The position numbers and the translations under genes were made by a program. Shown here one piece after another: positions 7,260-50,333 of a DNA stretch of 64,000 bases (positions are counted from its first letter, which is position 1; each line of letters starts with the position of its first letter). The stretch is from Ignavibacteria bacterium (lineage in GTDB: Bacteria > Bacteroidota > Ignavibacteria > Kapaibacteriales > UBA2268). The stretch covers positions 1 to 64,000 of the forward strand of contig JAOADV010000011.1 in NCBI GenBank assembly GCA_026417135.1, given 5' to 3'. Under the pieces are notes generated by a model, which was given only the letters and a program-made list of their open reading frames with translations, did not search any database and had not been told where the DNA came from.

Positions 7260-7611
7260 TTTTTAAAAAAATTATAAACTACAAAATTACATAAAACGGA
7301 ACAATTGAATTTCTTTTGTGTGTTTTGTTAAAACTACATTCTTTCCTTTGTTCGTGAAGTTTTTAGCAATGAATTTAATTTTACTACGGGAAAATCCAAA
7401 ATTATTTGGAAATTTGTTTTTTCTAACCAATACATTTTCAAGTAAAAACCTTCGTGCGATTCAAAAAAGTAAAATAATTTGTAACATTTTATTTAATTAA
7501 GCATTAATTTATTTGCGTTCAAATGTCGATAAAATTTTTTTACCAAAAATGTGGAATTAGATTTGCAAAGTTATTTTTTAGTATGAAAAAATTTAATTTG
7601 GGGTGAATTTT
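7260..7611. other. Divergent intergenic region, about 350 bases
   Basis: AT-rich spacer between glyS (minus) and the beta-helix gene (plus). It holds the candidate glyS promoter at 7282-7289 and a purine-rich ribosome site GGGGTGA ending 5 bases before the ATG at 7612. A 60-codon open frame at 7318-7500 has no ribosome site and low-complexity composition; I do not regard it as a gene. Confidence 0.6.
7282..7289 (-). promoter_or_regulatory. Candidate -7 box of glyS promoter
   Basis: TAATTTTG on the minus strand, matching the TAnnTTTG -7 element known for Bacteroidota primary sigma factors, 22 nt upstream of the glyS start. I see no convincing TTTG -33 element at the standard spacing, so confidence is limited. 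Confidence 0.4.
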
Positions 7612-9120
7612 ATGTGTCTTTTCTTTTTTATTGCACTTTTCAATATTTTTTCATCCCTCCTTTTAATAGCCCAAGTTCATATCGGTCCGGGGCATAAGTT
7701 TTCGAATATCCAAGAAGCTGCACCATTTATTAAACCTGGGGATACGGTCTACTTACATACTGGTATTTACCGTGGTTACAATTATATTTGGGGTTTAAAA
7801 GGTAGAGCTAATTCTTGGATAACCATTCGACCCTTTGGAGAAGAGCAACCAATAATACGAGGCCAATGGCAGTTTTCGGCTTTGGAATTTGTAAGATTTG
7901 AAAATTTAACATTTCAAGGCGACAAAACAGATACGATTGGCCCTTTTTTGAACATAGATAATGGCGGAAATTGTGAGAATCAATCCCGATACATTATTAT
8001 ATCTAATTGTTTCTTTGGTGGGAACCGTAGTGGAAACACTTTGAAGTTCGGTGGAGTCGATAACTTCGAGATTGTTAATTGTACTTTCAAAGAGCAAGGC
8101 GATGGCAACGCTGGTCTCGCTTTAAATGTTTGCCACAACGGATTGGTTCGCAATAACATTTTCGAGAACATCAAGGGTAGAGCAATTCAGACAAAATTAG
8201 GAACAAGAAATGTTAAAATAGAACGGAATTTGTTTCTCAATTGTGGAACTTTAGATGCCGTTTTACGAATTGGAGAAGCTGGCGATACAAAATTTCATTG
8301 TCCAGAAGATAAGTGGACGGCAAGAGAAATTTTCGTTCACTCAAACATCATAGTAGGCGGACGCTCTGCTTTTTCCTTCGGTCAAGCCCAAAATTGTGAA
8401 ATTGTTAATAATACAATAATTAATCCTCAACAGTTTGTTTTTCGTGTTCTTGCCGAGCAACCAACCTTTGTTTGCGATTCAAATCGTATCATTAATAATA
8501 TTTTTTACCTTGTCAATACGCGTTACTTCAATGGTTCGCCTAATCCTAAATTGAATAATGTGGATTATTCCTCTTTTGTTGTTTCGAATAATCTTTTTTA
8601 TTACACTGCCGACCCAAACTGGTTGCCTAATCCTACTGGGGGACCTTACGATGCTGAAGAACTTGAAGGAATAAAAATATCAAATTCTATACGTGGCGAC
8701 CCTCTTTTCTACGACATTAATAGCTTTAATTTTCGACTTTTACCGGGAAGTCCAGCTATTGGAGCTGGAGTTATCGTTCCAGCCCCAAAATATGATTATT
8801 TTGGTAATCCCTTCAAACAGCCACCTTCTGTCGGAGCAATCGAAGATACGACTATCGCTACCATCGTCGACGAAAGCAAATCCAAAAATGAATTATTGCT
8901 TTATCTCAATTCAAAACAACTTTACCTCGATGGTATAATCAATGAAGCAACAATTTCAATTTGGTCGATTTGCGGTAAAAGATGTTTCCCACAAATTGAC
9001 TATTTTTCTAATGGTACGGCTCGAATTGATTTCGAAAGTTTAGCTTCTGGGATATATTTCCTTTGTATCAACGAAAAAAATTCAATTCAAACATTTAAAG
9101 TTGCAGTTAAAGAAAAATAA
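7612..9120 (+). CDS. Secreted right-handed beta-helix protein with a C-terminal T9SS-like domain
   Basis: About 502 residues. A hydrophobic signal sequence (about 1-20, ending L-L-I-A-Q) is followed by a parallel beta-helix region (about 30-400) rich in asparagine ladders such as I-V-N-N-T-I-I-N and N-N-I-F, as in pectate-lyase-like and NosD-like proteins. The last 75 residues form a small beta domain ending with L-A-S-G-I-Y-F-L, the pattern of T9SS type A sorting domains, though the usual P-N-P is missing. Candidate starts are GTG at 7603 and ATG at 7612; I prefer the ATG because GGGGTGA lies 5 bases ahead. It probably acts outside the cell on a polysaccharide, but no catalytic residues can be assigned. 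Confidence 0.75.
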   Translation: MCLFFFIALFNIFSSLLLIAQVHIGPGHKFSNIQEAAPFIKPGDTVYLHTGIYRGYNYIWGLKGRANSWITIRPFGEEQPIIRGQWQFSALEFVRFENLTFQGDKTDTIGPFLNIDNGGNCENQSRYIIISNCFFGGNRSGNTLKFGGVDNFEIVNCTFKEQGDGNAGLALNVCHNGLVRNNIFENIKGRAIQTKLGTRNVKIERNLFLNCGTLDAVLRIGEAGDTKFHCPEDKWTAREIFVHSNIIVGGRSAFSFGQAQNCEIVNNTIINPQQFVFRVLAEQPTFVCDSNRIINNIFYLVNTRYFNGSPNPKLNNVDYSSFVVSNNLFYYTADPNWLPNPTGGPYDAEELEGIKISNSIRGDPLFYDINSFNFRLLPGSPAIGAGVIVPAPKYDYFGNPFKQPPSVGAIEDTTIATIVDESKSKNELLLYLNSKQLYLDGIINEATISIWSICGKRCFPQIDYFSNGTARIDFESLASGIYFLCINEKNSIQTFKVAVKEK

Positions 9121-27663: not shown

Positions 27664-29337
27664 ATGCACAAAATAATCGGGAAAATCTTATTAACTACGA
27701 TAATTTACTTCAATTTTGCTCTTGCTCAAAATTGGGAATGGGCTATTGGGGGAAAGGGATACGATAGCTTTGATTATTCAAGCGATGTGGCAGTCGACCG
27801 ATTTGGAAACGCATATCTTTTGGGTTACTTTAAAAGCAAAAACCTTTCTTTTGGTAGTGTCTCCATTTCGAACAAAGGAACTGATAGCGAAGATTTCTTC
27901 ATTGCAAAGTTTAATTCTTCTGGGACTTGCCTTTGGGCAAAAGCTTTCGGTGGCGACGGCAACGAGCGTGGTAAAGCACTTGCTGTACGCGACGGCTCGA
28001 TTTTCGTGTGTGGTTTCTACGAAGGCGACAACACAAAATTCGAAAACATTAATTTGCCAAACTCCATAGGCTCCGACATATTCGTTGCAGAATTGGATTT
28101 GGATGGGAATCTAAAATGGGTAAAAACATTCTACGGCGACGGCTACGAAGAACCTAATTCACTTATTTACGATTCCGAAGGGAATTTATATATCTGTGGC
28201 GATTTTTCCGGCGAAATTGTAGTGTTTGGAACCGACACCCTAAAAAATTTCAACTATGGGTCAGCTTTCAAAGGACTAACCGATGCTTTTCTTCTAAAAT
28301 TAAATTCAAAAGGGGAGCCTTTGGGAGCAATAAGATTGGGCGGAGTTTCGAACGACCGATTTAATTGTCTCGCTCTCGACAATTCCAACAACGTTTACGT
28401 AGCTGGTTCTTATAACAGCAATAGATTAATTTTTCCCACCGATACCTTAATCAACAAAGGTTACTCCGATGTTTTCGTCGTAAGGTATCGCCAAATTTTT
28501 ACGCAAGGCAAAGTGAGCTTCGAAAAAGAATGGGTCCGTGAAATCAGCGGAACCGATAAAGAATATCCATCCTTCTTAACCATCGATAAAGACAACTACA
28601 TTTATTTAGTAGGCGAATTTCAAAGTTCGCAACTTAAAATTTTGAATAACATTTTACCAAATTTTGGTAGCTACGATATTTTTTTAATTCGTTTAGACCT
28701 CTCTGGGACAATTATCTCTGCAAAATCCTATGGAGGCAATTCCGACGAGTATATCAAAAAAATAATTTTCGATAAAAACCACAATATATACTTTGCTGGA
28801 TATTTTGCTAGCGAAAGTTTTTATTTGGAGTGGCTTGGAACGACAAATGTTACAAACACACAATATTCAGATGTGTTCCTTGCAAAATTCGACTTCAACG
28901 GAGTACCACAATGGATTCTTTCGGCTGGTGGCAATAAAGAAGACCAAAGCTTTTCGATTGCCGTCGATAATAATGGTAACGTTTATCAGGTTGGTAACTT
29001 CGAATCAAAAGAAATAAGATTCAATAAGCATAATTTGTTTAACTTTGGCCACTCGAATATTTTTATTGCAAAAGCAAATCCGCTATTAACCGATGTGAAC
29101 GAAATAAACAGTTCCTCGTGTCTTGTTTTATATCCAAATCCTTGCACAGATTATTTATTTTTCTCCTTGCCCTTAGAAAGCGAAAGTAAGCAAGTCGAAA
29201 TTACAACACTCGAAGGAACTCAAATAACTGTTGTTCCAAATACCTCTTTCATTAATCGTTTGGATGTGTCGAAGCTTGCCCAAGGTGTATATCTTTTCCG
29301 TTACGAAAACCGAACGAAGCTGTTCGTTAAAATGTAG
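27664..29337 (+). CDS. Secreted SBBP-repeat (beta-propeller) protein with T9SS sorting domain
   Basis: 557 residues: signal peptide (about 1-21, ending F-A-L-A-Q), then about eight imperfect repeats of 50-60 residues with the pattern D-x-x-G-N-x-Y-x-x-G-x-F followed by F-I-A-K-F and G-G, as in SBBP beta-propellers. The last 80 residues are a T9SS type A domain with Y-P-N-P-C-T-D-Y-L and G-V-Y-L-F-R-Y. The protein should cross the outer membrane by T9SS and stay at the surface or be released. No enzymatic residues are evident. It follows glgP by 21 bases, but a functional link is unlikely. Confidence 0.82.
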   Translation: MHKIIGKILLTTIIYFNFALAQNWEWAIGGKGYDSFDYSSDVAVDRFGNAYLLGYFKSKNLSFGSVSISNKGTDSEDFFIAKFNSSGTCLWAKAFGGDGNERGKALAVRDGSIFVCGFYEGDNTKFENINLPNSIGSDIFVAELDLDGNLKWVKTFYGDGYEEPNSLIYDSEGNLYICGDFSGEIVVFGTDTLKNFNYGSAFKGLTDAFLLKLNSKGEPLGAIRLGGVSNDRFNCLALDNSNNVYVAGSYNSNRLIFPTDTLINKGYSDVFVVRYRQIFTQGKVSFEKEWVREISGTDKEYPSFLTIDKDNYIYLVGEFQSSQLKILNNILPNFGSYDIFLIRLDLSGTIISAKSYGGNSDEYIKKIIFDKNHNIYFAGYFASESFYLEWLGTTNVTNTQYSDVFLAKFDFNGVPQWILSAGGNKEDQSFSIAVDNNGNVYQVGNFESKEIRFNKHNLFNFGHSNIFIAKANPLLTDVNEINSSSCLVLYPNPCTDYLFFSLPLESESKQVEITTLEGTQITVVPNTSFINRLDVSKLAQGVYLFRYENRTKLFVKM

Positions 29338-32646: not shown

Positions 32647-33909
32647 ATGAAGTTCTACTTAAATATATTAATAAGTTTTGCTATACTTACTTTTCCAACC
32701 TTAAGTCAAAAGATACTGATACCTATGGATTTAACCCAAACCGACCATTTAAAGGCTTATGGTTTTGCGTATTGGACTTTGAAACAAGGGCAAACTGTCG
32801 ACTGGCTTTTGAACTACCGAGGTGGTTCGTTTATAACAGATTATTCTCCGATTATCGAAACTGAAAGTCGGATTCGGGGCGTCTCGTTCGAAGTTATCGA
32901 TGGAGCAACAGCATCGCTTATCTATGCAGAAGTGCAAAGCAACGATGTCAATATGGATGTGGTTCATCTTGAAAAGCCACCTAAAATTGCGGTTTATGCA
33001 ACGCCCGGAACACAACCTTGGGACGATGCAGTGTTATTAGCATTAAATTATGCGCAAATCGAACACGATGTCCTTTGGAACGAAGAGGTTCTTGCTGGTA
33101 AGCTCTCCGAATACGATTGGCTACATTTGCACCACGAAGACTTCACTGGTCAGTATGGTAAGTTTTGGGCTTCGTTTTCGACCCAACCTTGGTACATAGA
33201 ACAGGTTACGATAAACGAAGCAATGGCAAAGAAACTTGGTTTTACTAAAGTTTCCGAGATGAAAAAAGCGGTTGCTTTAAAAATTCGAGAATATGTTGCA
33301 AATGGTGGCTTCCTTTTTGCAATGTGTAGTGCAACCGATACCTACGACATTGCACTTGCTGCTCTTAATACAGACATATGCGAAAGTATGTTCGATGGCG
33401 ACCCAGCCGACCCCAACGCTCAATCCAAACTTGACTTTTCCCAAACTTTCGCTTTCGAAAACTTTAAATTGGTAATGGACCCTTTTGTTTATGAGTTTTC
33501 AGATATCGACTGCCCTCCAAATGTTTTTTTGATGAACCCCGAAACCGACTATTTCACCCTTTTTGAATTCTCAGCAAAGTTCGACCCAGTCCCAACTATG
33601 CTTACGCAAAACCACGTCAATGTTGTTAAAGGGTTTCTTGGTCAAACTACAGCTTTTAAATTAGATAAAATAAAAAAGAACATAACTATAATGGGCATAA
33701 AAGAAGGAACTGACGAAGTAAAGTATATCCACGGAAATGTCGGTAGAGGTATGTTTACTTTTTATGGTGGACACGACCCAGAAGATTATCAACACGCAGT
33801 CGGCGACCCACCGACAGATTTAAACTTGCATAAAAACTCTCCGGGTTATAGGTTAATTTTAAATAATGTGCTCTTCCCTGCTGCTAAGAAAAGGGTACTT
33901 AAAACTTAA
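32647..33909 (+). CDS. Conserved secreted protein often mis-named asparagine synthetase B
   Basis: 420 residues with a signal peptide (about 1-20, ending L-S-Q). The body matches, from memory of the family, a protein widely conserved in Bacteroidota and annotated as asparagine synthetase B: I-L-I-P-M-D, H-L-K-A-Y-G, V-D-W-L-L-N-Y-R-G-G-S-F, then a second half starting K-I-A-V-Y with W-D-D-A-V near 121, L-H-L-H-H-E-D-F-T-G-Q-Y-G-K-F near 154-168, F-A-M-C-S-A-T-D-T near 222 and Y-G-G-H-D-P-E near 375. It has no glutaminase N-terminal cysteine or ATP-pyrophosphatase loop of AsnB, and it is exported, so that name is wrong. The second half looks like a class I glutamine-amidotransferase-like fold. 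The function is unknown. Confidence 0.75.
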   Translation: MKFYLNILISFAILTFPTLSQKILIPMDLTQTDHLKAYGFAYWTLKQGQTVDWLLNYRGGSFITDYSPIIETESRIRGVSFEVIDGATASLIYAEVQSNDVNMDVVHLEKPPKIAVYATPGTQPWDDAVLLALNYAQIEHDVLWNEEVLAGKLSEYDWLHLHHEDFTGQYGKFWASFSTQPWYIEQVTINEAMAKKLGFTKVSEMKKAVALKIREYVANGGFLFAMCSATDTYDIALAALNTDICESMFDGDPADPNAQSKLDFSQTFAFENFKLVMDPFVYEFSDIDCPPNVFLMNPETDYFTLFEFSAKFDPVPTMLTQNHVNVVKGFLGQTTAFKLDKIKKNITIMGIKEGTDEVKYIHGNVGRGMFTFYGGHDPEDYQHAVGDPPTDLNLHKNSPGYRLILNNVLFPAAKKRVLKT

Positions 33910-35725: not shown

Positions 35726-37657
35726 TTATTTAACCAAAAGCCAAGCTGAACGATTCATCATTCTACCAATAGGAGTTTCGTTTGAGAAAAGTGTTCCACC
35801 ATTGTCGAAAGACTCGATTTTTGCGTCTATACCCAGATAATTTTTGATTCTATTTGCTCGTCGAATTGCAAGTTGCTTGTTGTATGCTTCAGTTCCAACG
35901 TTATCGACCGAGCCAATTATGAAAATTTCTTTTCCAGTTTTTTTTGCTTGGTTAATTATTTTTTCGACTTCCGAGTTTATCCAGTAAAAATTATCCTCGT
36001 CGAAATTAAATAAAGAAACAAGAATTGCTTGGGACCCTTTGATTTGATATGGATTTATTAATACAAGACTATCTTTAACATTTTCTTCAAAGGTTAAATT
36101 CTTTTCCAGCTTAACGGATTGTTCGAGCTCGTCTTCGGATTTCACAATTACTTCTATTTGCAAAGTTCCGTTGGGATTAGAAGTAAAATCTTTTGGGTCG
36201 AATTGAAATTCTCTATCTTTGAAATGAACTATGGAGCTGTTAAATCCAATTTTACCAACGATACTGACCTTCGGGTTATTCGGTTCGACAACTGTTTCGA
36301 CTTTTATCTTAGGCAATATTGAATAACTCGAATCGTTCGATAGTTCTTGTTTTTCGAAGATGAAATTTCCGTTTGGAAACAAAATTCTCACAGAACGGGT
36401 TTCTTCGCTTAGCTCGGGCGGCTGGGTTTTCGCTTTCACAACAAGGGTTTGCTTTTCGATGTTATCAACATTTATACCAAATGTCTTTAGTAGGCCGATG
36501 GTTTGGGAAATACGATGCTCGCATATATTTGCTTCCTCGGAATCATTTTGTGAGCAAATTACCGATAGCTTGATGTTTGGGTTCTTAGCAAAAAAATCTT
36601 TCAAAGCGATAATCGTACTATAATTTAATTCGTAAATCCTCCGATTTTCCATGTCCGAGACAGCTGGGGTTTTGTAAATAGTATATTCATTGTGCGGAAA
36701 GAAGAAAATTGCTGGAAGGAATTCTTTCCGAATAAATTTAATTCTTGTAGTATAGAAAGCAATAGTATCCGATGTCAATACATTGTCATTGTTAATCTTG
36801 AGATTCAGTTTAGCCTCAAGTTTGGGTGGTAGCTTGGGTGGTTGCAATTCTGGTAAATCAAGTAAAGGTGGTGCAATAGGTGGAGGAGGTTCAATTTTGG
36901 GCAAAGTATATGCCAAGGACAAACCCAGTCCGATGGAATAGATTTTCCAATTAATATCTTTTACTTGGTTGAAGAAAGGAATAGCAAAAGAAAATCGAGG
37001 TGAAATCGAAAAGTTCGAGGATTTAAAAAAAGTATAAGCAATCGATAGATTTAAAGCAAGGTTGGGTTTCAAGTCGGGAATTTTACCAGAGAATGTATTG
37101 CGAGTCTTTTCACCATTTTCGAAATAAGCCCTTTCTGGTTCAACAAGTGTTTCAGATTGTTGGAACTTGGAAGTTAAAGGTACGGATAAATCCAAGCCAA
37201 GTCGAAGTTCTAAGTCTTTGAGCATCCAAATGTTAGAAAACGATAAGCCAGTTGCAAAAACAGCAGCTGGCAAATTGATTTTTAAAAGATGGCGACTTAT
37301 TGCTTTGTAAACTTTTTCATCGATGATTACATCGGCAAAGTATTCGTTGTAATCAAATTTCCCAGAATAATTCTGTAATGAAAAGTTTGAATATATCCCA
37401 AAATCGGTTTGAAATTCACGAAAGATTGGTTTTAAAGTAGTGCCTAATGCAATGTTGTAGCCGAAGCCTCCACCTTTCGAGAAATTTCCACAGCAATTAT
37501 ACCCTTTAAATCCAGAAAAGTCAGCAAAATAGAAATTAAAAGTTGGGAGAAACAAGCCTTCTATTCCAACCTTTGGTTTACTTTCTAAGTTAATGTTTAA
37601 AATAATGGGAAACAAAAAGATTATACAAGGAAAGACCAAAGATTTGAGCATTTTCAC
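35726..37657 (-). CDS. Outer-membrane protein with two OmpA-like domains
   Basis: 643 residues: signal peptide (about 1-26), a beta-rich N-terminal half (about 30-255) resembling an outer-membrane barrel, a proline-rich linker (P-P-P-P-I-A-P-P-L-L and following, about 256-280), then two OmpA/MotB-like segments. The first (about 315-425) has N-P-N-I-K-L-S-V and a downstream arginine pair; the second (about 545-643) has the clearer signature, Y-N-K-Q-L-A-I-R-R-A-N-R-I-K-N-Y-L, used to bind peptidoglycan. The gene starts 4 bases inside the end of the large WD40/Ig cargo gene, so the two products are made together. It probably anchors an outer-membrane or surface assembly to the wall. Confidence 0.78.
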   Translation of the reverse strand: MKMLKSLVFPCIIFLFPIILNINLESKPKVGIEGLFLPTFNFYFADFSGFKGYNCCGNFSKGGGFGYNIALGTTLKPIFREFQTDFGIYSNFSLQNYSGKFDYNEYFADVIIDEKVYKAISRHLLKINLPAAVFATGLSFSNIWMLKDLELRLGLDLSVPLTSKFQQSETLVEPERAYFENGEKTRNTFSGKIPDLKPNLALNLSIAYTFFKSSNFSISPRFSFAIPFFNQVKDINWKIYSIGLGLSLAYTLPKIEPPPPIAPPLLDLPELQPPKLPPKLEAKLNLKINNDNVLTSDTIAFYTTRIKFIRKEFLPAIFFFPHNEYTIYKTPAVSDMENRRIYELNYSTIIALKDFFAKNPNIKLSVICSQNDSEEANICEHRISQTIGLLKTFGINVDNIEKQTLVVKAKTQPPELSEETRSVRILFPNGNFIFEKQELSNDSSYSILPKIKVETVVEPNNPKVSIVGKIGFNSSIVHFKDREFQFDPKDFTSNPNGTLQIEVIVKSEDELEQSVKLEKNLTFEENVKDSLVLINPYQIKGSQAILVSLFNFDEDNFYWINSEVEKIINQAKKTGKEIFIIGSVDNVGTEAYNKQLAIRRANRIKNYLGIDAKIESFDNGGTLFSNETPIGRMMNRSAWLLVK

Positions 37658-40600
37658 CTGCTAAATTTTACAAAGTTCAAAACGATAGAGTTGCCTTCCG
37701 CCACCAAAACCAACGAGAAAATACCATCGGGCAAGTTTGAAACGTCCAACGAAGTTTCTATTTCACCCTCAGTAGTATAAAAGCTGGAATTGAGTAAATG
37801 GTTCCCTAAAACATCATTAATGCGAATTTCAATTAAGGTATGCTTTTCGGAAAAGAGAGAAATTCGAAGGATATCGCCAACTGGATTTGGAAAGATTTTG
37901 ACGTTACGAATGAGCTCATTCTTTTGAATAATTCTACGGTTTTCGCAAAGTCCAATTAATTTAATAATTCCGTCTTGAGCTTCAACTTCGAAATTTTTCC
38001 CCCAAAATTTTCCATTCTCTGTGAATTTTAGAAATGTACTATCTGTTTCCGCCAGAGCTACATTTCCAACAATACTTACAGCAGTTCCAACTGGGGGGAA
38101 ATTTCCGTTTACCCGAACTGCAATAAATCTGCGGTCGAAGACAATCTCGTTTCTTATGATTTCAGCTTCTCCAAAGTCACTTTCAGCATAAAATGGGATG
38201 AAAATTCTTGGATTGACGGAGAATTCTGCTTCGAAAAACCTTCGTCCATTATAAGGTTTATTCTCTGAATTGGAAAATTCTATTGGTATTTTTATTAAAC
38301 CTTTAGGTTCTGTCTGAATTATCGGCAAAATTATCTTCGATTTTCCTATATATGGACCAAGTGTCATAGAGTTTACAACTGCACAAGGCGAACCGTGAAT
38401 TCTTAATTCAGACTCGGGTATTTCCTTTGAAAGCAAACTTATGTTGATTATCTTAGAAGACTTTGCTCGAAGTATAAACGGAAAATTAATATCGACTGCG
38501 AAATAACCAGAAGGGACTAAAACAATACTATCGACAACAATATCCGTTTCGGATGTATTAGTTAAAGTGAATTGTCGTTGGGGAATTTCTGGAATAAATC
38601 TCAAATCGTTGGGAGTTGGATTTATGTTTGTTCCAAAGCCAATTCCAAGCACAGGAACAGAATAAATGTATCGTCGTTGTCCAAGATAGTAAATGTCGAG
38701 CGAAGCAGTATATTTACCAATAGTCGTTGGGGTGAATTGCAAAATAATCTTTAGTCTTCCTTTTGGAGCAAGAACTTGTGGTTGATTCCCAAAGAGAATT
38801 TTAAAATTCGAGAAAGTGTTCGATTCGATACGAATAAAATCAATTGGTAAGTCGATTGAATCGAGATTTTCGGCAATTTCGAGTTCTAACTGTTTACTTT
38901 CGTTCACGCAAACTTCGCCAAAATCGATAGGATTAACCAAGATTTTCAAATTGCGATTTAGTCCATAACCTCGAAGTGGGATAAAATATGTATTTCCGCA
39001 AGAGAGAAAAATTAATGTATCGTGAATCAATCCAGTATCCTTTGGGTTGTAAGTTATCATAACTGGTAAACATTCGCCGGGTTTTAGTGTTTCGTAATGA
39101 TAATTTCTTGGTAAACTGAAATTCTTCCCATAGAGCAAATATGCATATTCAATAATTAATGGTGTTTGGCCAATATTACAAAAATATTCGGTGAATGAAA
39201 ATTGAGTTTCGTGATATATATGTTGGGGTGGAAAGCTTATTTCTTTCGAACGAACAAGTGGCCTTTTAATCTTGAAACTTGAATCTGCAATATCCATCTC
39301 GGGGTAACTTAATTCGCGTCGTATGATTTCGCTTCGTTCGGGTTCAGCTGTTAGGATTGTAAAATCGGTCGGCGAGATTTTAAAATCCGAAATTGAGTAG
39401 CTAGAACCATAGATGCTCGAAGTCTTTTGGTCTAAAACTAAATCCCACAGAACAAGATAGGGATTGTTTTCGAACCCAAGGACAAGGTAATTATCGGTGG
39501 GAGAAAAGTCAATACCAAGAGCTTCGGACCAGTTTTTGTATAATGAACGGACAATTTGTCCAGACTCGATTTCGATAACGAAAGCATCCGAAAAATTATC
39601 GTAAATATCAGTATTTTGCGTTGTTTTGGTTGTAAAAGCGACGAATTTTTTGTCGTTAGAAATTGCCAAGGAAGTAAAATATGGCAAAAACTTTATTTTT
39701 AAATGTTTTATTTCAGTAAAATCTTTGAGGTTTAAGATTTTAATTTCATTTGAAAGAAGCCCAACAGCAAGCAAATCGTCTTTGATTGCAATTTTTTGAA
39801 TTGGAGACGGAAAAGATACCTTAGCCGATAAATTGAGCTTTGGCAAATGAATTATTTCGACAATATTTTCATTTCGAAAAGCAAGGAGACATTTGTTATT
39901 AGCGTCATCGACCAAAATGTCTTCAATTTTTCTTTCAGTTTGGATTGGAATTCTACTAACTACTTCTCCATTCAAAAGATTTATTACAACAAGGGAGTCG
40001 TTTCCCGTTTGACCAAAATAATCCATCCACCGATAAGAAATCACAGCGAAAGTATCGACCTCAAAGTAACTTAAACCAGTAACGAAGGAAGATTCCAATG
40101 GGAAATTTAAGCTTGTGAAAGTGTAGCTTTTGATAGGTTTACTTGTTGTTGCATCGTATTCTGTTAGTTTTCCATCTTGAAAAGCAATTATAAATTTGTT
40201 TCCATCGCTGGAAAAAGCGACCTTTTGCGGTTTTTTATTGGGAGAATCGAGGCTTTTTTCGCCGGACGCAACAAAATCTTGGCGAACACGAACAAGAACC
40301 TCGTCTGCATCTATGTTTGGTACGAACCAATTGTATTCTGAATCGGTAACTTCATCTATTTTTGTCCAGTTTTTTCCTTTGTCAGTTGTATATTCTATTA
40401 TCGTAGGAACATCTTTCCGATGACCTTTCCAGCGAATTTTAACAACTTGACAAGGAGTGAAAATTTCCCCTCCACTCGGTTCGATAAGCTCTAACAAAGT
40501 TCTTCGGAGAATTGGAAATGAATTGCCAACCAATGCTAAATGACTTTCGCGCCCTCCGTCGTAATATACTGTTAAGTATTCTCGGTAATACTTGTTTTCC

Positions 40601-41223
40601 GAAGGCAGAAATAGTACCTCGATTGCGTAAGGAAACGGGGAAACAATCGTTGTCGGAGGTTGGTCTGTATTTATACTCGACCCAAGCCAAAGGTATTTGA
40701 AAGATTCGGAACTAACACCAACACCATCGACAAGGATCCGATTCGTACTTGACATTGCTACAACATTCGTTCTTGCATTAGTGTATTCCCCAACTGGAAC
40801 ATTCCCAAATCGCAACTCTTTAATTAAATTTCTATCATTATCGACAAATTTGGCGAAGCTAAATGGAAAACTACTCGGTGGCTGAATAACTTCGGGAGAG
40901 GCAATCCCAACTTCGTCGCCGAATGTTATGTAAAAAGTTGGAATAGCAGTTTTAATTGCAGAGGCTGTCCATAAAACTTTTTGAAATTTATTAAAGTCTG
41001 GAGCATCGACTTTTTTAGGTCTAACTGGAATATTGTCGTCGAGAATTAAAACATTGTTCTCATCTACTGTAATAGGCTCTCCATTTTTTGTAACTTTTAT
41101 CTTTACCGAAAGATTAGGGTAGGCCGAAAAATTTAACCTTTCGCCAAAAGTAATTTCAATTTTTGAGTATAAAGGTGAAAAAAGCAATAAAAAAAGCAAA
41201 ATTGTAAGGGTTTTTAAAAGCAT
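37654..41223 (-). CDS. Large T9SS cargo with WD40-like propeller and choice-of-anchor Ig domains
   Basis: 1189 residues. A signal peptide (about 1-20) is followed by an Ig-like part with L-E-L-I-E-P-S-G-G-E-I-F near 243, then a WD40/quinoprotein-like propeller (about 330-640) with repeats such as V-A-F-S-S-D-G-N-K and G-I-D-F-S-P-T-D-N-Y. Then come several choice-of-anchor D (ASH-like) Ig domains (about 665-1000) with I-D-F-G-E-V and G-x-G-F/L motifs. The end is a T9SS type A domain with I-F-P-N-P-V-G-D and L-P-D-G-I-F. It should be exported to the surface and is translationally coupled to the OmpA-family gene downstream. No catalytic site is visible; a binding or scaffold role is likely. Confidence 0.8.
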   Translation of the reverse strand: MLLKTLTILLFLLLFSPLYSKIEITFGERLNFSAYPNLSVKIKVTKNGEPITVDENNVLILDDNIPVRPKKVDAPDFNKFQKVLWTASAIKTAIPTFYITFGDEVGIASPEVIQPPSSFPFSFAKFVDNDRNLIKELRFGNVPVGEYTNARTNVVAMSSTNRILVDGVGVSSESFKYLWLGSSINTDQPPTTIVSPFPYAIEVLFLPSENKYYREYLTVYYDGGRESHLALVGNSFPILRRTLLELIEPSGGEIFTPCQVVKIRWKGHRKDVPTIIEYTTDKGKNWTKIDEVTDSEYNWFVPNIDADEVLVRVRQDFVASGEKSLDSPNKKPQKVAFSSDGNKFIIAFQDGKLTEYDATTSKPIKSYTFTSLNFPLESSFVTGLSYFEVDTFAVISYRWMDYFGQTGNDSLVVINLLNGEVVSRIPIQTERKIEDILVDDANNKCLLAFRNENIVEIIHLPKLNLSAKVSFPSPIQKIAIKDDLLAVGLLSNEIKILNLKDFTEIKHLKIKFLPYFTSLAISNDKKFVAFTTKTTQNTDIYDNFSDAFVIEIESGQIVRSLYKNWSEALGIDFSPTDNYLVLGFENNPYLVLWDLVLDQKTSSIYGSSYSISDFKISPTDFTILTAEPERSEIIRRELSYPEMDIADSSFKIKRPLVRSKEISFPPQHIYHETQFSFTEYFCNIGQTPLIIEYAYLLYGKNFSLPRNYHYETLKPGECLPVMITYNPKDTGLIHDTLIFLSCGNTYFIPLRGYGLNRNLKILVNPIDFGEVCVNESKQLELEIAENLDSIDLPIDFIRIESNTFSNFKILFGNQPQVLAPKGRLKIILQFTPTTIGKYTASLDIYYLGQRRYIYSVPVLGIGFGTNINPTPNDLRFIPEIPQRQFTLTNTSETDIVVDSIVLVPSGYFAVDINFPFILRAKSSKIINISLLSKEIPESELRIHGSPCAVVNSMTLGPYIGKSKIILPIIQTEPKGLIKIPIEFSNSENKPYNGRRFFEAEFSVNPRIFIPFYAESDFGEAEIIRNEIVFDRRFIAVRVNGNFPPVGTAVSIVGNVALAETDSTFLKFTENGKFWGKNFEVEAQDGIIKLIGLCENRRIIQKNELIRNVKIFPNPVGDILRISLFSEKHTLIEIRINDVLGNHLLNSSFYTTEGEIETSLDVSNLPDGIFSLVLVAEGNSIVLNFVKFSR

Positions 41224-47227: not shown

Positions 47228-48538
47228 ATGAAAGATTTTACTATCGAATGTCCGAATTGCAAAGTAAAGATAAAAATCGACGATGTGTTGTCGGGAAAAG
47301 TTTTTTCCGATTTCAAAACATTAATTGACTCGGAGATAAAAAAAATTAGGGAAAGTGAACTTGCCCATTACGAGAGCGAACTCAAAAGAAAATACGAGGA
47401 TAAAATTACTCAAATACAATTAGAATTCGCAAAAAAAGAGCATGAAAATTCTATACGGCTGAAACAAAGAGAAAATATGCATAAACTCGAAATAGAGCAA
47501 ATCCGACGAGAGTACGAATTGAAAATCAGCACCCAAATGAGTTCTTTGCAACAAACAATCGAACTTTTGCAAAAGCAGCTCGAAGAAAGCAAGAGGGAAA
47601 TCGACGAAAAGCGAAAGGAGTTAGAAATAGCGCGCAAACTCGAAGTCGAATTAAGAAAAAGAGCAACCGAGCTGGAAGAAAAGGAAAAAAATCTTGAACT
47701 CGAAATTCAAAGACGATTGAGTTTGGAACGCAACGCAATGGCAGAAAACATAAGAAAGACAATAGATACGGAATACCTTTTAAAATTGCAAGAGAAGGAA
47801 TTAACAATTAATTCGATGCAGAAAAAGATTGAGGAGCTGAATATGAAGCTCCAATTAGGCTCGCAGCAAACAAAAGGCGAAGCACAAGAAATAGTTCTCG
47901 AAGACCTTTTAACTCAAAGTTTTCCATTTGATTCAATCGAACCTGTCCCCAAAGGTATTCGTGGAGCCGATATCATTCAAGTTGTTCGTAACAGATATGG
48001 ACTTGTATGTGGCAAAATACTTTGGGAATCGAAAAGAACAAGCGCTTGGAATAACGAATGGATACCGAAATTAAAAGAAGACCAACGGGAAATCGGGGCC
48101 GAACTTGCAGTTATTGTTTCACGTACATTGCCAAAGGAAATAAATTTCATTGGTTTGCTCAATGGGGTATGGGTTTGCGATTTCGACCGCTGCATTGGCT
48201 TGGCTATGGCTTTGCGAGAAATTTTGATACAAGTTCAATCCATTCGAAACACTTTTGAGGGGCGCGATACAAAAATGGAACAAATTTTTAATTACATATG
48301 TAGCGAACAATTCACACAGAAAGTTAAAGCAATTGTCGAAGCATTCGTCAATATGAAAAGCGACTTGGAAAAAGAGAAAATCTCTATGGAAAAGCATTGG
48401 AAAAAAAGGGAAGAGGAATTAAATCGTGTTATAAAAAATACCGCAAGGATTTACGGCGAGCTGGAAGCAATTGTTGGGCGACAGTTACCAGAAATACCAG
48501 TATTTCAACTACCGGGTTTGGAAAAAGATTATTCTTAA
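47228..48538 (+). CDS. DUF2130 domain protein (coiled coil plus putative nuclease-like domain)
   Basis: 436 residues. It starts with a zinc-ribbon-like half (C-P-N-C near 9-12), then a long coiled coil (about 25-215) rich in Glu, Lys and Arg, then the DUF2130 domain (about 220-380). Within it, G-K-I-L-W-E-S-K-R-T followed by a Q-x-E-x-x-A-E-L-A-V-I-V stretch resembles the core of PD-(D/E)xK nucleases. A final coil reaches about residue 425. Function is not established for the family; the coil resembles structural filament or chromosome-associated proteins. Its neighbours give no clear link. Confidence 0.78.
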   Translation: MKDFTIECPNCKVKIKIDDVLSGKVFSDFKTLIDSEIKKIRESELAHYESELKRKYEDKITQIQLEFAKKEHENSIRLKQRENMHKLEIEQIRREYELKISTQMSSLQQTIELLQKQLEESKREIDEKRKELEIARKLEVELRKRATELEEKEKNLELEIQRRLSLERNAMAENIRKTIDTEYLLKLQEKELTINSMQKKIEELNMKLQLGSQQTKGEAQEIVLEDLLTQSFPFDSIEPVPKGIRGADIIQVVRNRYGLVCGKILWESKRTSAWNNEWIPKLKEDQREIGAELAVIVSRTLPKEINFIGLLNGVWVCDFDRCIGLAMALREILIQVQSIRNTFEGRDTKMEQIFNYICSEQFTQKVKAIVEAFVNMKSDLEKEKISMEKHWKKREEELNRVIKNTARIYGELEAIVGRQLPEIPVFQLPGLEKDYS

Positions 48539-48554
48539 AAATAGAGGTAAATGT

Positions 48555-50333
48555 ATGGTTCGAAAATTCTTGTTTCTTACTTTAGTTTTCGCATTAGTTT
48601 TCCCTTCGTCTGTTCTAAGCGATTGGGAACCATTGGGCAGTGCCCCGCTACCACCTATAAAAGATTTACTTGCCTTTCGAGGCAAAATATATGCTATCTC
48701 GGCAAATTTAGGAGTATTTGTTTCTTCGGACTATGGAGATAATTGGGTTCAATCGAACGAAGGGTTGGGCACTTCTTTTGTTAACTCTATGGCTCTTGTC
48801 GATACAGTACTTTTACTTGCAACCTACGACCAAGGCGTATACCGTTCGACAACTTATGGGATTACGTGGACCCGTGTTGTCGATACTGTAATGGAACGGA
48901 ACATCTTTAGTTTCGCAGTTGACCAACGAAATGTTTACCTTTTAACCGAAGGCTCATCGATTTTCAAATCGACAAATCTTGGTGTTACTTGGGAAAAAAT
49001 TAATACAAGTGAAATAGATGCTGTGATTACCTCTTTTACGGTTCGAGATGGTAAATTTTATGTCGGAACAATGAATTCGAATTTGTATTATTCGAGCGAC
49101 GAAGGAAAAACTTGGACCGATATTTCGAACGGAAAACTTTTCTCGAGTATAAATACAATTTTAGTTGATGGGAACGATGTCTTTTGTGGAACGGAATTCG
49201 GTATCTCTCACACATCAAATTTGGGGCAAATTTGGAATCATAAAAATGTTGGGATAAAGTTCCCCAAAATTAGATTTATTAGCATAATAAACAATGCATT
49301 GATTGTAAGTGTAAAGGATGGTGGTTTATATTTTTCTTTCAACAAGGGTCTTTCGTGGATTGAATTTAACGAAAATTTGCCAGAGATGAATGTGATTTCC
49401 CTTGCAGCCGACAATTATTACATATATGCTGGAACTGAATACAGCTATATTGCCCGAAGAAGTATCGGCGAACTAAAAGTTCCAGAAGTTAAAGCTCCAA
49501 AACTTATCTTCCCGCCAAATTTAGCTACCAATATCGAACTTACTGTAAGCTTTTCTTGGGAAATATCGAAAGGTGCAGTAGGTTATCATCTGCTTGTGTC
49601 CAATTCCGAAGATTTCGCCCCAAATTCCATACTCTACGATTTCGACAACTTGACTAACAATTACTACTTTGGCTTACAATTCAGACCCAATAGAAAATAC
49701 TATTGGAAAGTAGCAGCAATCGACGAGCTCAATGTAAAAAAATGGTCCGAAACTTTTTCTTTTCAAACTATTGTCGATTCGACCCCACCATTACTACATT
49801 TTCCACCAAATAATCACGAAATAACGCAAATTCCAATTCGTTTTACTTGGAGCGACCTCGGTCTTGTCGAACATTATAAATTTCAATTAGCTACCGACAA
49901 CTTGTTCCAAAATGTAATTGTCGAAAAGATTACAAAAGACACAATGGTTTCTGTTGTCGACGAATTAGAGAACAACAAAACCTATTATTGGCGCGTTTTC
50001 GTCCGATTTCTTAACGGTTTCGACACAGTTTCGAAGACACTAACGTTTACGACAAAGGTTCTTTCGGTCGGCGAGGACAATCTTGAAACTTGGTTTAAAT
50101 TTTATCAGACCAGCGAAAAGCTAATCTTTGTTTTCGAGGAAAAGGAGAATAGAATTTTTTCAATCGAAATATTCGACTTGCTTGGAAGAAGAGTGCTATT
50201 CGATTGGTTCGAAACCTCTTCCAATGAAAGCTCGATTTACTTCGATATTTCTCGTTTAAAAACTGGCGTTTATTACTATGTTGTTAGGTCTGGGACTTTT
50301 GTAAAACGCTCTTCTTTTGTTGTTACGAAATGA
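48555..50333 (+). CDS. Secreted sialidase-like (BNR) repeat protein with Fn3 domains and T9SS-like end
   Basis: About 592 residues. I chose the ATG at 48555: AGAGGT lies 6 bases ahead and it opens a clear signal peptide (M-V-R-K-F-L-F-L, ending V-L-S-D), whereas 48471 lies inside the previous gene. Residues 25-300 hold BNR/Asp-box-type repeats (S-x-D-x-G-x-x-W, for example S-S-D-Y-G-D-N-W and S-S-D-E-G-K-T-W), forming a propeller. Two fibronectin-III-like domains follow (about 310-500). The end has D-L-L-G-R-R-V and L-K-T-G-V-Y-Y-Y, as in T9SS type A domains. Probably surface-exposed; no sialidase catalytic site is evident. Confidence 0.8.
   Translation: MVRKFLFLTLVFALVFPSSVLSDWEPLGSAPLPPIKDLLAFRGKIYAISANLGVFVSSDYGDNWVQSNEGLGTSFVNSMALVDTVLLLATYDQGVYRSTTYGITWTRVVDTVMERNIFSFAVDQRNVYLLTEGSSIFKSTNLGVTWEKINTSEIDAVITSFTVRDGKFYVGTMNSNLYYSSDEGKTWTDISNGKLFSSINTILVDGNDVFCGTEFGISHTSNLGQIWNHKNVGIKFPKIRFISIINNALIVSVKDGGLYFSFNKGLSWIEFNENLPEMNVISLAADNYYIYAGTEYSYIARRSIGELKVPEVKAPKLIFPPNLATNIELTVSFSWEISKGAVGYHLLVSNSEDFAPNSILYDFDNLTNNYYFGLQFRPNRKYYWKVAAIDELNVKKWSETFSFQTIVDSTPPLLHFPPNNHEITQIPIRFTWSDLGLVEHYKFQLATDNLFQNVIVEKITKDTMVSVVDELENNKTYYWRVFVRFLNGFDTVSKTLTFTTKVLSVGEDNLETWFKFYQTSEKLIFVFEEKENRIFSIEIFDLLGRRVLFDWFETSSNESSIYFDISRLKTGVYYYVVRSGTFVKRSSFVVTK

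Follow-up and report, generated by a model that had tools for sequence, protein, structure and literature searches.

A conserved gene pair in Kapabacteria codes for a type A T9SS cargo protein and an OmpA-type barrel that may hold it at the cell surface

The window analyzed here is a stretch of 64,000 nucleotides from an Ignavibacteria bacterium of the order Kapaibacteriales (assembly GCA_026417135.1, contig JAOADV010000011.1, positions 1 to 64,000), and the subject is a pair of genes on its minus strand. The first gene, P1 (37654..41223), codes for a propeller and immunoglobulin (Ig)-like protein of 1189 amino acids (aa), of the type exported by the type IX secretion system (T9SS). The second gene, P2 (35726..37657), comes next on that strand and codes for a 643-aa protein with an OmpA-type barrel and two OmpA-like domains. 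Both open reading frames (ORFs), their strand and their lengths agreed with the original prediction, although its coordinates, 37654-41223, covered P1 and not P2. The genes were characterized by ORF, Pfam, profile and predicted structure model, and P1 also by NCBIfam. Our results establish the domain make-up of the two proteins, the pairing and co-occurrence of their genes, and the retention of peptidoglycan-contact residues in P2. We lean toward the view that P1 and P2 make up a complex at the cell surface, in which P1 is exported by the T9SS and held by P2. A surface complex tied to the peptidoglycan is plausible because P2 adjoins P1 at 75 of 90 places, and because P2 orthologues track P1 even where the two genes lie apart.

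Pairing of P1 and P2 across the order

The search for P1 and P2 covered 123 genomes from the window's order; P1 was found at 90 places in 89 of them, leaving 34 P1-less genomes. P1 places were counted, among the matches listed, down to about 210 bits, with one row per P1 and second pieces omitted; P2 places were counted to a lower limit of about 87 bits, few being omitted, and below it only on P1 contigs plus two others. P2 lies directly downstream of P1 on the same strand at 72 places and directly upstream at 3 (genomes G120-G122). The downstream pairs comprise 66 from the listed matches, five in which the adjacent P2 was identified by profile in the flanks (G013, G017, G034, G036, and G037), and G104, in which P1 is split over two contigs and P2 is directly downstream. 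Initially, 24 P1 places were unmatched; 22 were checked in their flanks, and the other two, G038 and the first G104 place, are at a contig edge, the G104 pairing being settled by its second contig. A contig end intervenes at three P1 places (G016, with 332 bases left, G038, and G117). Thus, the homologs are not routinely encoded apart, the arrangement that had been named beforehand as contrary to the prediction.

Because the pair is conserved throughout the order, its arrangement cannot be put down to chance, and this conservation marks the P1-P2 link as old and specific. Other neighbors of P1 and P2 are common only within a genus and vary between genera; for example, lipoate ligase and Ppx/GppA genes lie upstream in four relatives, and different genes are found elsewhere. 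In a phylum sample of 296 genomes, P1 was found in 21 (E 1e-40 or better), all within the order; two candidates were scored per genome at E up to 1e-40, and remote relatives outside the order may remain. All 14 named relatives are metagenome-assembled Kapabacteria, including CP058732.1, and some of their titles read 'Candidatus Kapaibacterium', Ignavibacteria or Bacteroidetes. No paper describing the P1-P2 pair was recognized from the titles and abstract beginnings listed by searches of open-licence PubMed Central papers, which for Kapabacteria by name listed 15 of 84.

The two ORFs share four bases, which read GTGA (37657-37654) and not ATGA as predicted. At the junction (37649..37660), the P1 stop codon TGA overlaps a GTG, the first codon at which P2 could start. 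Six bases downstream lies an in-frame ATG (37651-37649), with AGGTGA directly ahead of it, and a start there would leave a 2-base gap after the P1 stop; judged by sequence, this ATG is the likelier start. Among 29 P1-P2 gaps in relatives, measured from the first possible start codon, 23 fall within -4 to +31 bases and three more within -76 to -37, making 26 from -76 to +31. The outliers are +107, +592, and +646, the last measured to the second fragment of a P2 that is broken. The predicted close coupling of the genes thus holds on the evidence of these distances. Scans for promoter-like sites (30 against 22.9 +/- 5.1 in shuffles) and terminator-like sites (10 against 6.6 +/- 2.5) were taken as uninformative; none of the latter fell at the junction, and one minus-strand site (37730-37710) falls within the terminal part of P1. 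Apparently split genes were also observed in two relatives, namely P2 in G091 (L115:11484-13335) and the P1 reading frame in G036 (L090:2843-6374), a one-contig genome.

P2 is a member of a large paralogous barrel family, and orthologs were separated from paralogs by trees and profiles. In a 73-row tree made by a quick method with SH-aLRT only, a fully supported branch separated 40 P2 orthologs from 33 paralogs, and in a careful 51-row tree 20 paralogs stood behind a 100/100 branch. The 66 adjacent P2 genes were all on the ortholog side, 64 by profile and those of G035 and G041 on the 51-row tree. The profiles, trained on groups defined from the 51-row tree, put 65 of 65 loci on the ortholog side, the 65th being a displaced gene in G068; the P2 of G122 is a fragment and was left unclassified. 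In total, P2 orthologs are present in 85 of the 89 P1 genomes: adjacent in 75, displaced in nine (G047, G055, G068, G082, G113, G114, G115, G116, and G119), and on the edge of another contig in G038. Among the 34 P1-less genomes, for which classification covered only the best P2 hits or a selection of them, 26 have paralog-side hits only among those classified, and five (G001, G002, G004, G005, and G098) were left unclassified. Three have a P2 ortholog (G014, G033, and G056); those of G014 and G033 are at contig ends, and P1 may just be missing from these assemblies. The co-occurrence of P1 and P2 has a Fisher p of 2e-21, or 9e-19 without the five unclassified genomes, values that ignore relatedness. 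We give more weight to contrasts within genera, where both genes are absent together: G063 and G066 are without both and G064 and G065 have both, and G111 is without both and G110 and G112 have both.

Domain make-up of P1 and P2

All the following coordinates are on the minus strand. P1 begins with a hydrophobic N-terminus containing a helix (residues 1-20, 41164..41223), a putative signal peptide by sequence and model, followed by what the strand pattern of the model suggests are about three beta-sandwich, Ig-like domains (residues 22-316, 40276..41160). Residues 317-640 (39304..40275) form a WD40-type propeller, which was weak from the single sequence; a profile of 20 orthologs matched 2ymu (E 1.9e-38), and in the predicted model (mean pLDDT 84) residues 316-639 align to WD40 propellers with Z about 33. 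Further Ig-like domains occupy residues 646-967 (38323..39288; Pfam and model), with an ASH/HYDIN/Cep192-type match above the Pfam cut-off at about 766-862. A conserved beta domain follows (residues 968-1098, 37930..38322; alignment and model), for which the matches listed outside P1 orthologs held one weak, non-significant stretch (L161). The protein ends with a type A T9SS sorting domain (residues 1104-1189, 37657..37914). PF18962 matches it at residues 1110-1180 (35.1 bits, cut-off 27) and also matches 19 of 20 P1 orthologs (E up to 0.01), and TIGR04183, the type A model, scores 23.9 bits, just above its cut-off of 23. The propeller, Ig domains and sorting domain of the original prediction were therefore confirmed; the NCBIfam choice-of-anchor D family scores 39.9 bits, under its cut-off of 45. 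Six cysteine positions of P1 are the same in all 20 orthologs compared.

A second P1-like T9SS cargo of 1255 aa is encoded elsewhere in the window's genome (contig C11, L095:14412-19411). Its Ig and ASH regions match those of P1, and its WD part is weak. No barrel gene adjoins it, and its gene has a 4-base overlap with another sorting-domain gene (411 aa).

The barrel N-half, proline linker and two OmpA-like segments predicted for P2 were all borne out by the model (mean pLDDT 84) and profile matches. The barrel (residues 26-252, 36902..37582) is of the OmpA/NspA/OmpW type; residues 26-256 align to OmpA with Z 17.0, and OmpA, NspA, OmpW, and OprF were found at Z 14 to 17. A proline-rich linker (residues 253-280, 36818..36901), with low pLDDT at 266-275, leads to the first OmpA-like domain (residues 301-430, 36368..36757; profile, model, alignment), whose profile match is to MotY (322-427) and whose model aligns to Pal (305-428, Z about 11). 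A beta domain seen in the model (residues 433-540, 36038..36361) separates it from the second OmpA-like domain (residues 541-643, 35729..36037). This last domain scores 30.3 bits against a Pfam cut-off of 27.2, with 17 of 20 orthologs also matching (E up to 0.1); its profile match is to an OmpA domain (549-640), and its model aligns to OmpA/Pal-type domains with Z about 10 to 13. Papers are cited here by their PubMed Central identifiers. The PorE crystal structure shows peptidoglycan in contact with the side chains of Asp576, Asn584, and Arg591 (PMC7192894). Asp585, Asn593, and Arg600 of P2, predicted to have the same roles, have the same spacing and are invariant in 20 of 20 orthologs. In a wider set, the Asp/Asn/Arg pattern near the C-terminus was present in 29 of 30 ortholog rows and 20 of 20 paralog rows. 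These residues suggest that the last OmpA-like domain of P2 should bind peptidoglycan and that the first, which has lost the contact pattern, should not.

Twin cysteines, Cys55-Cys56 (37490..37495; ortholog alignment and model), lie between strands 1 and 2 of the barrel, in the first loop, and by barrel topology they should face outward. Cys55 is present in 18 of 20 orthologs and Cys56 in 17, and most of the barrel-family rows listed have a Cys-Cys early in the barrel. A disulfide between this loop and P1 was considered as a general feature and found unsupported, since Cys55 is absent in 2 of 20 orthologs and Cys56 in 3; it is further weakened by paralogs without a cargo neighbor, which carry the twin cysteines too. 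Compared with OmpA and OprF, P2 shares the small N-terminal barrel and a C-terminal domain that should bind peptidoglycan, but differs in its second OmpA-like domain, intervening beta domain, proline linker, loop 1 twin cysteines, and cargo partner gene.

A possible surface complex and its alternatives

We infer contact between P1 and P2, a surface location, static anchoring and binding by the propeller. After export by Sec, P1 would use its type A sorting domain to cross the outer membrane through the T9SS. The OmpA-type barrel of P2 would be embedded in that membrane and hold P1 by its outer loops, and the last OmpA-like domain of P2 would grip the peptidoglycan, thereby fixing the attachment point of P1. 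The propeller and Ig stack of P1 might then serve as an extracellular scaffold or binding platform.

A precedent exists in the Bacteroidota, where type B cargo is held by a PorP/SprF barrel with a proposed tie to the peptidoglycan via PorE, and where five type B substrate/SprF-like/PorE-like operons are described in Flavobacterium johnsoniae (PMC9143113, PMC12618676). A T9SS cargo is common to P1/P2, the PG1035-PorP-PorE complex of Porphyromonas gingivalis, and the F. johnsoniae operons. The last resemble P1/P2 in having an outer-membrane barrel gene beside the cargo gene; a further likeness is a peptidoglycan-binding OmpA domain within the proposed static complex. However, P1 is a type A cargo, and the barrel and OmpA domain of P2 are one protein. 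The P2 barrel is OmpA-type, in contrast to the 14-stranded FadL-type barrel of PG1035-PorP-PorE and the type B systems, and the propeller is in the cargo rather than in a periplasmic lipoprotein. P1/P2 is not a member of a type B system because of the type A signal, the OmpA-type barrel and the lack of a TIGR03519 match; by analogy, its relation to type B cargo/PorP/PorE is one of functional likeness, not membership. A PorP/SprF identity of P2 was rejected, as TIGR03519 did not match the window's P2 (NCBIfam, E up to 1), and this family was also absent from the 25 families matching 20 P2 orthologs (E up to 0.1). A PorP/SprF search of the window's genome found none, but the controls gave no match either, and absence is not shown by it.

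Several observations weigh against P2 as the holder of P1. At 12 of the 90 P1 places, P2 is not adjacent in the visible flank (the second copy in G039, G047, G055, G068, G082, G088, G113-G116, G118, and G119), and a P2 ortholog was not found in 4 of the 89 P1 genomes (G016, G088, G117, and G118). G056 is P1-less with no contig-end explanation, yet a P2 ortholog is present. Within P2, the first OmpA-like domain has the Asp/Asn/Arg pattern in only 1 of 30 ortholog rows and 1 of 20 paralog rows. Among the paralogs, 16 of 26 places are not beside a cargo gene. In addition, a shared docking domain in the cargos beside P2-type barrels was not found; cargos that have no barrel neighbor carry ASH-type Ig domains as well. 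The main doubt arises because the window's genome also has PorU (803 bits, above cut-off), located beside a PorV match that is under its cut-off. Type A cargo of P. gingivalis is cleaved and linked to lipopolysaccharide (PMC9143113). By analogy, PorU could cut off the type A domain of P1 and join P1 to lipopolysaccharide without P2.

On this alternative, P2 would be a separate envelope stabilizer, and the two proteins would share regulation and a pathway but form no complex. It is consistent with the type A domain of P1 and with the PorU and PorV matches. The window's genome also has 76 sorting-domain matches, 75 of them besides P1, against a handful of P2-type barrel places, so most cargo is without such a neighbor. 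In our judgment, however, order-wide pairing together with joint presence and absence exceeds what shared regulation usually produces, and we regard this alternative as unlikely.

Another reading takes P2 as a dedicated export carrier similar to SprF, which would receive P1 from the SprA channel and stay bound to it. In SprB/SprF and one further type B pair, too, the barrel gene directly follows the gene of its cargo (PMC12618676). However, PorV and PorP-like carriers are described as 14-stranded FadL-family barrels (PMC9143113), in contrast to the OmpA-type alignment of P2, and the known carrier of type A cargo such as P1 is PorV (PMC12618676). A carrier role for P2 therefore appears quite improbable. 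SprF, like P2, has conserved paired cysteines; its Cys-X-Cys is in a periplasmic tail and serves gliding-track attachment (PMC12635249), whereas the Cys-Cys of P2 is in the first barrel loop.

The original prediction also proposed that parts of PorE are here split over two genes, and P1 and P2 together might then represent PorE in split form, or some other core component of the T9SS. P1/P2 and PorE do have in common a WD40 propeller, an OmpA domain and equally spaced Asp/Asn/Arg peptidoglycan contacts, with the propeller in P1 and the OmpA domains in P2 as separate chains. The PorE model NF052230 matches 6 of 20 P2 orthologs (E up to 0.1; matched part not displayed), and P1 and P2 of the window were unmatched at E up to 1. 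PorE, however, is a single periplasmic lipoprotein with a TPR domain, and the order's genomes give separate matches to its model. Matches were found in 123 of 123 genomes, none above cut-off; 6 of 14 control genomes, including E. coli, also matched, and a bare match proves little. Many of the matches listed span about 150-200 to 600 of 648 positions, that is, the propeller and OmpA part in one chain (the span for the window's own genome was not displayed). SprA is present in 122 of 123 genomes (4.5e-222 in the window's genome, G000), and the P1-P2 pair is dispensable for the T9SS because all 34 P1-less genomes retain SprA. PorE is periplasmic (PMC7192894), and the sorting domain on P1 indicates that its propeller should lie outside the cell. 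With order-wide PorE-type matches, persistence of SprA where the pair is absent, and a propeller presumably outside, a split PorE has hardly any chance of being correct, and descent from PorE was not upheld.

Cargo genes beside related barrels

Barrels related to P2 also occur beside other T9SS cargo genes. In the window's genome, 3 of 6 other P2-type barrel places (on C60, C44, and C62) adjoin a T9SS cargo gene; a seventh further match (L100), with the OmpA part only, was not counted. In other genomes, 7 of 20 sampled P2-type barrel loci adjoin one. Cargo was judged by Pfam in the window's genome and by a profile of our own elsewhere. Together, 10 of 26 paralog places are beside cargo, a count that keeps five displaced P2 orthologs among the 20 sampled loci, two of them at contig ends. 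This proportion has p 5e-5 at a chance rate of 9%, itself estimated from the 76 sorting-domain matches and the number of genes extrapolated from the window, and p 0.02 at a rate of 20%. Adjacency of barrel and cargo genes is thus more common than expected, though limited to a minority of places.

It is possible, if somewhat doubtful, that Kapabacteria evolved OmpA-type, twin-cysteine, peptidoglycan-binding barrels, independently of PorP/SprF, as cargo-specific anchors for type A proteins, with P1/P2 as the most conserved pair and the exposed cysteines perhaps helping to lock or recognize cargo. Type B cargo-barrel pairs with peptidoglycan attachment are already known in Bacteroidota; a type A version on an OmpA barrel, if true, would be the same solution from different parts. 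It would also help to explain the large paralogous barrel family in Kapabacteria genomes, and would offer a testable surface machine for this little-studied group.

Some further gene arrangements were observed. At L099:3388-6509 (C62 of the window's genome), a 784-aa T9SS cargo gene has a 4-base overlap with a gene coding for a 256-aa P2-type barrel without an OmpA domain. At L097:2336-7954 (C44), a P2-type barrel gene is followed by a T9SS cargo gene whose product contains, by Pfam, VWA, Ig and cohesin domains. In two genomes, L153:5322-13000 and L156:5500-13001 contain WD40/Ig T9SS cargos of 1438-1466 aa with P2-type genes on both sides, one of the two flanking genes being cut by the stretch end. 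Within the window, positions 32647-33909 on the plus strand code for a 420-aa protein with a hydrophobic N-terminus, for which neither Pfam nor NCBIfam gave a match at E up to 1, and three further genes (7603-9120, 27664-29337, and 48471-50333) code for proteins with T9SS sorting domains.

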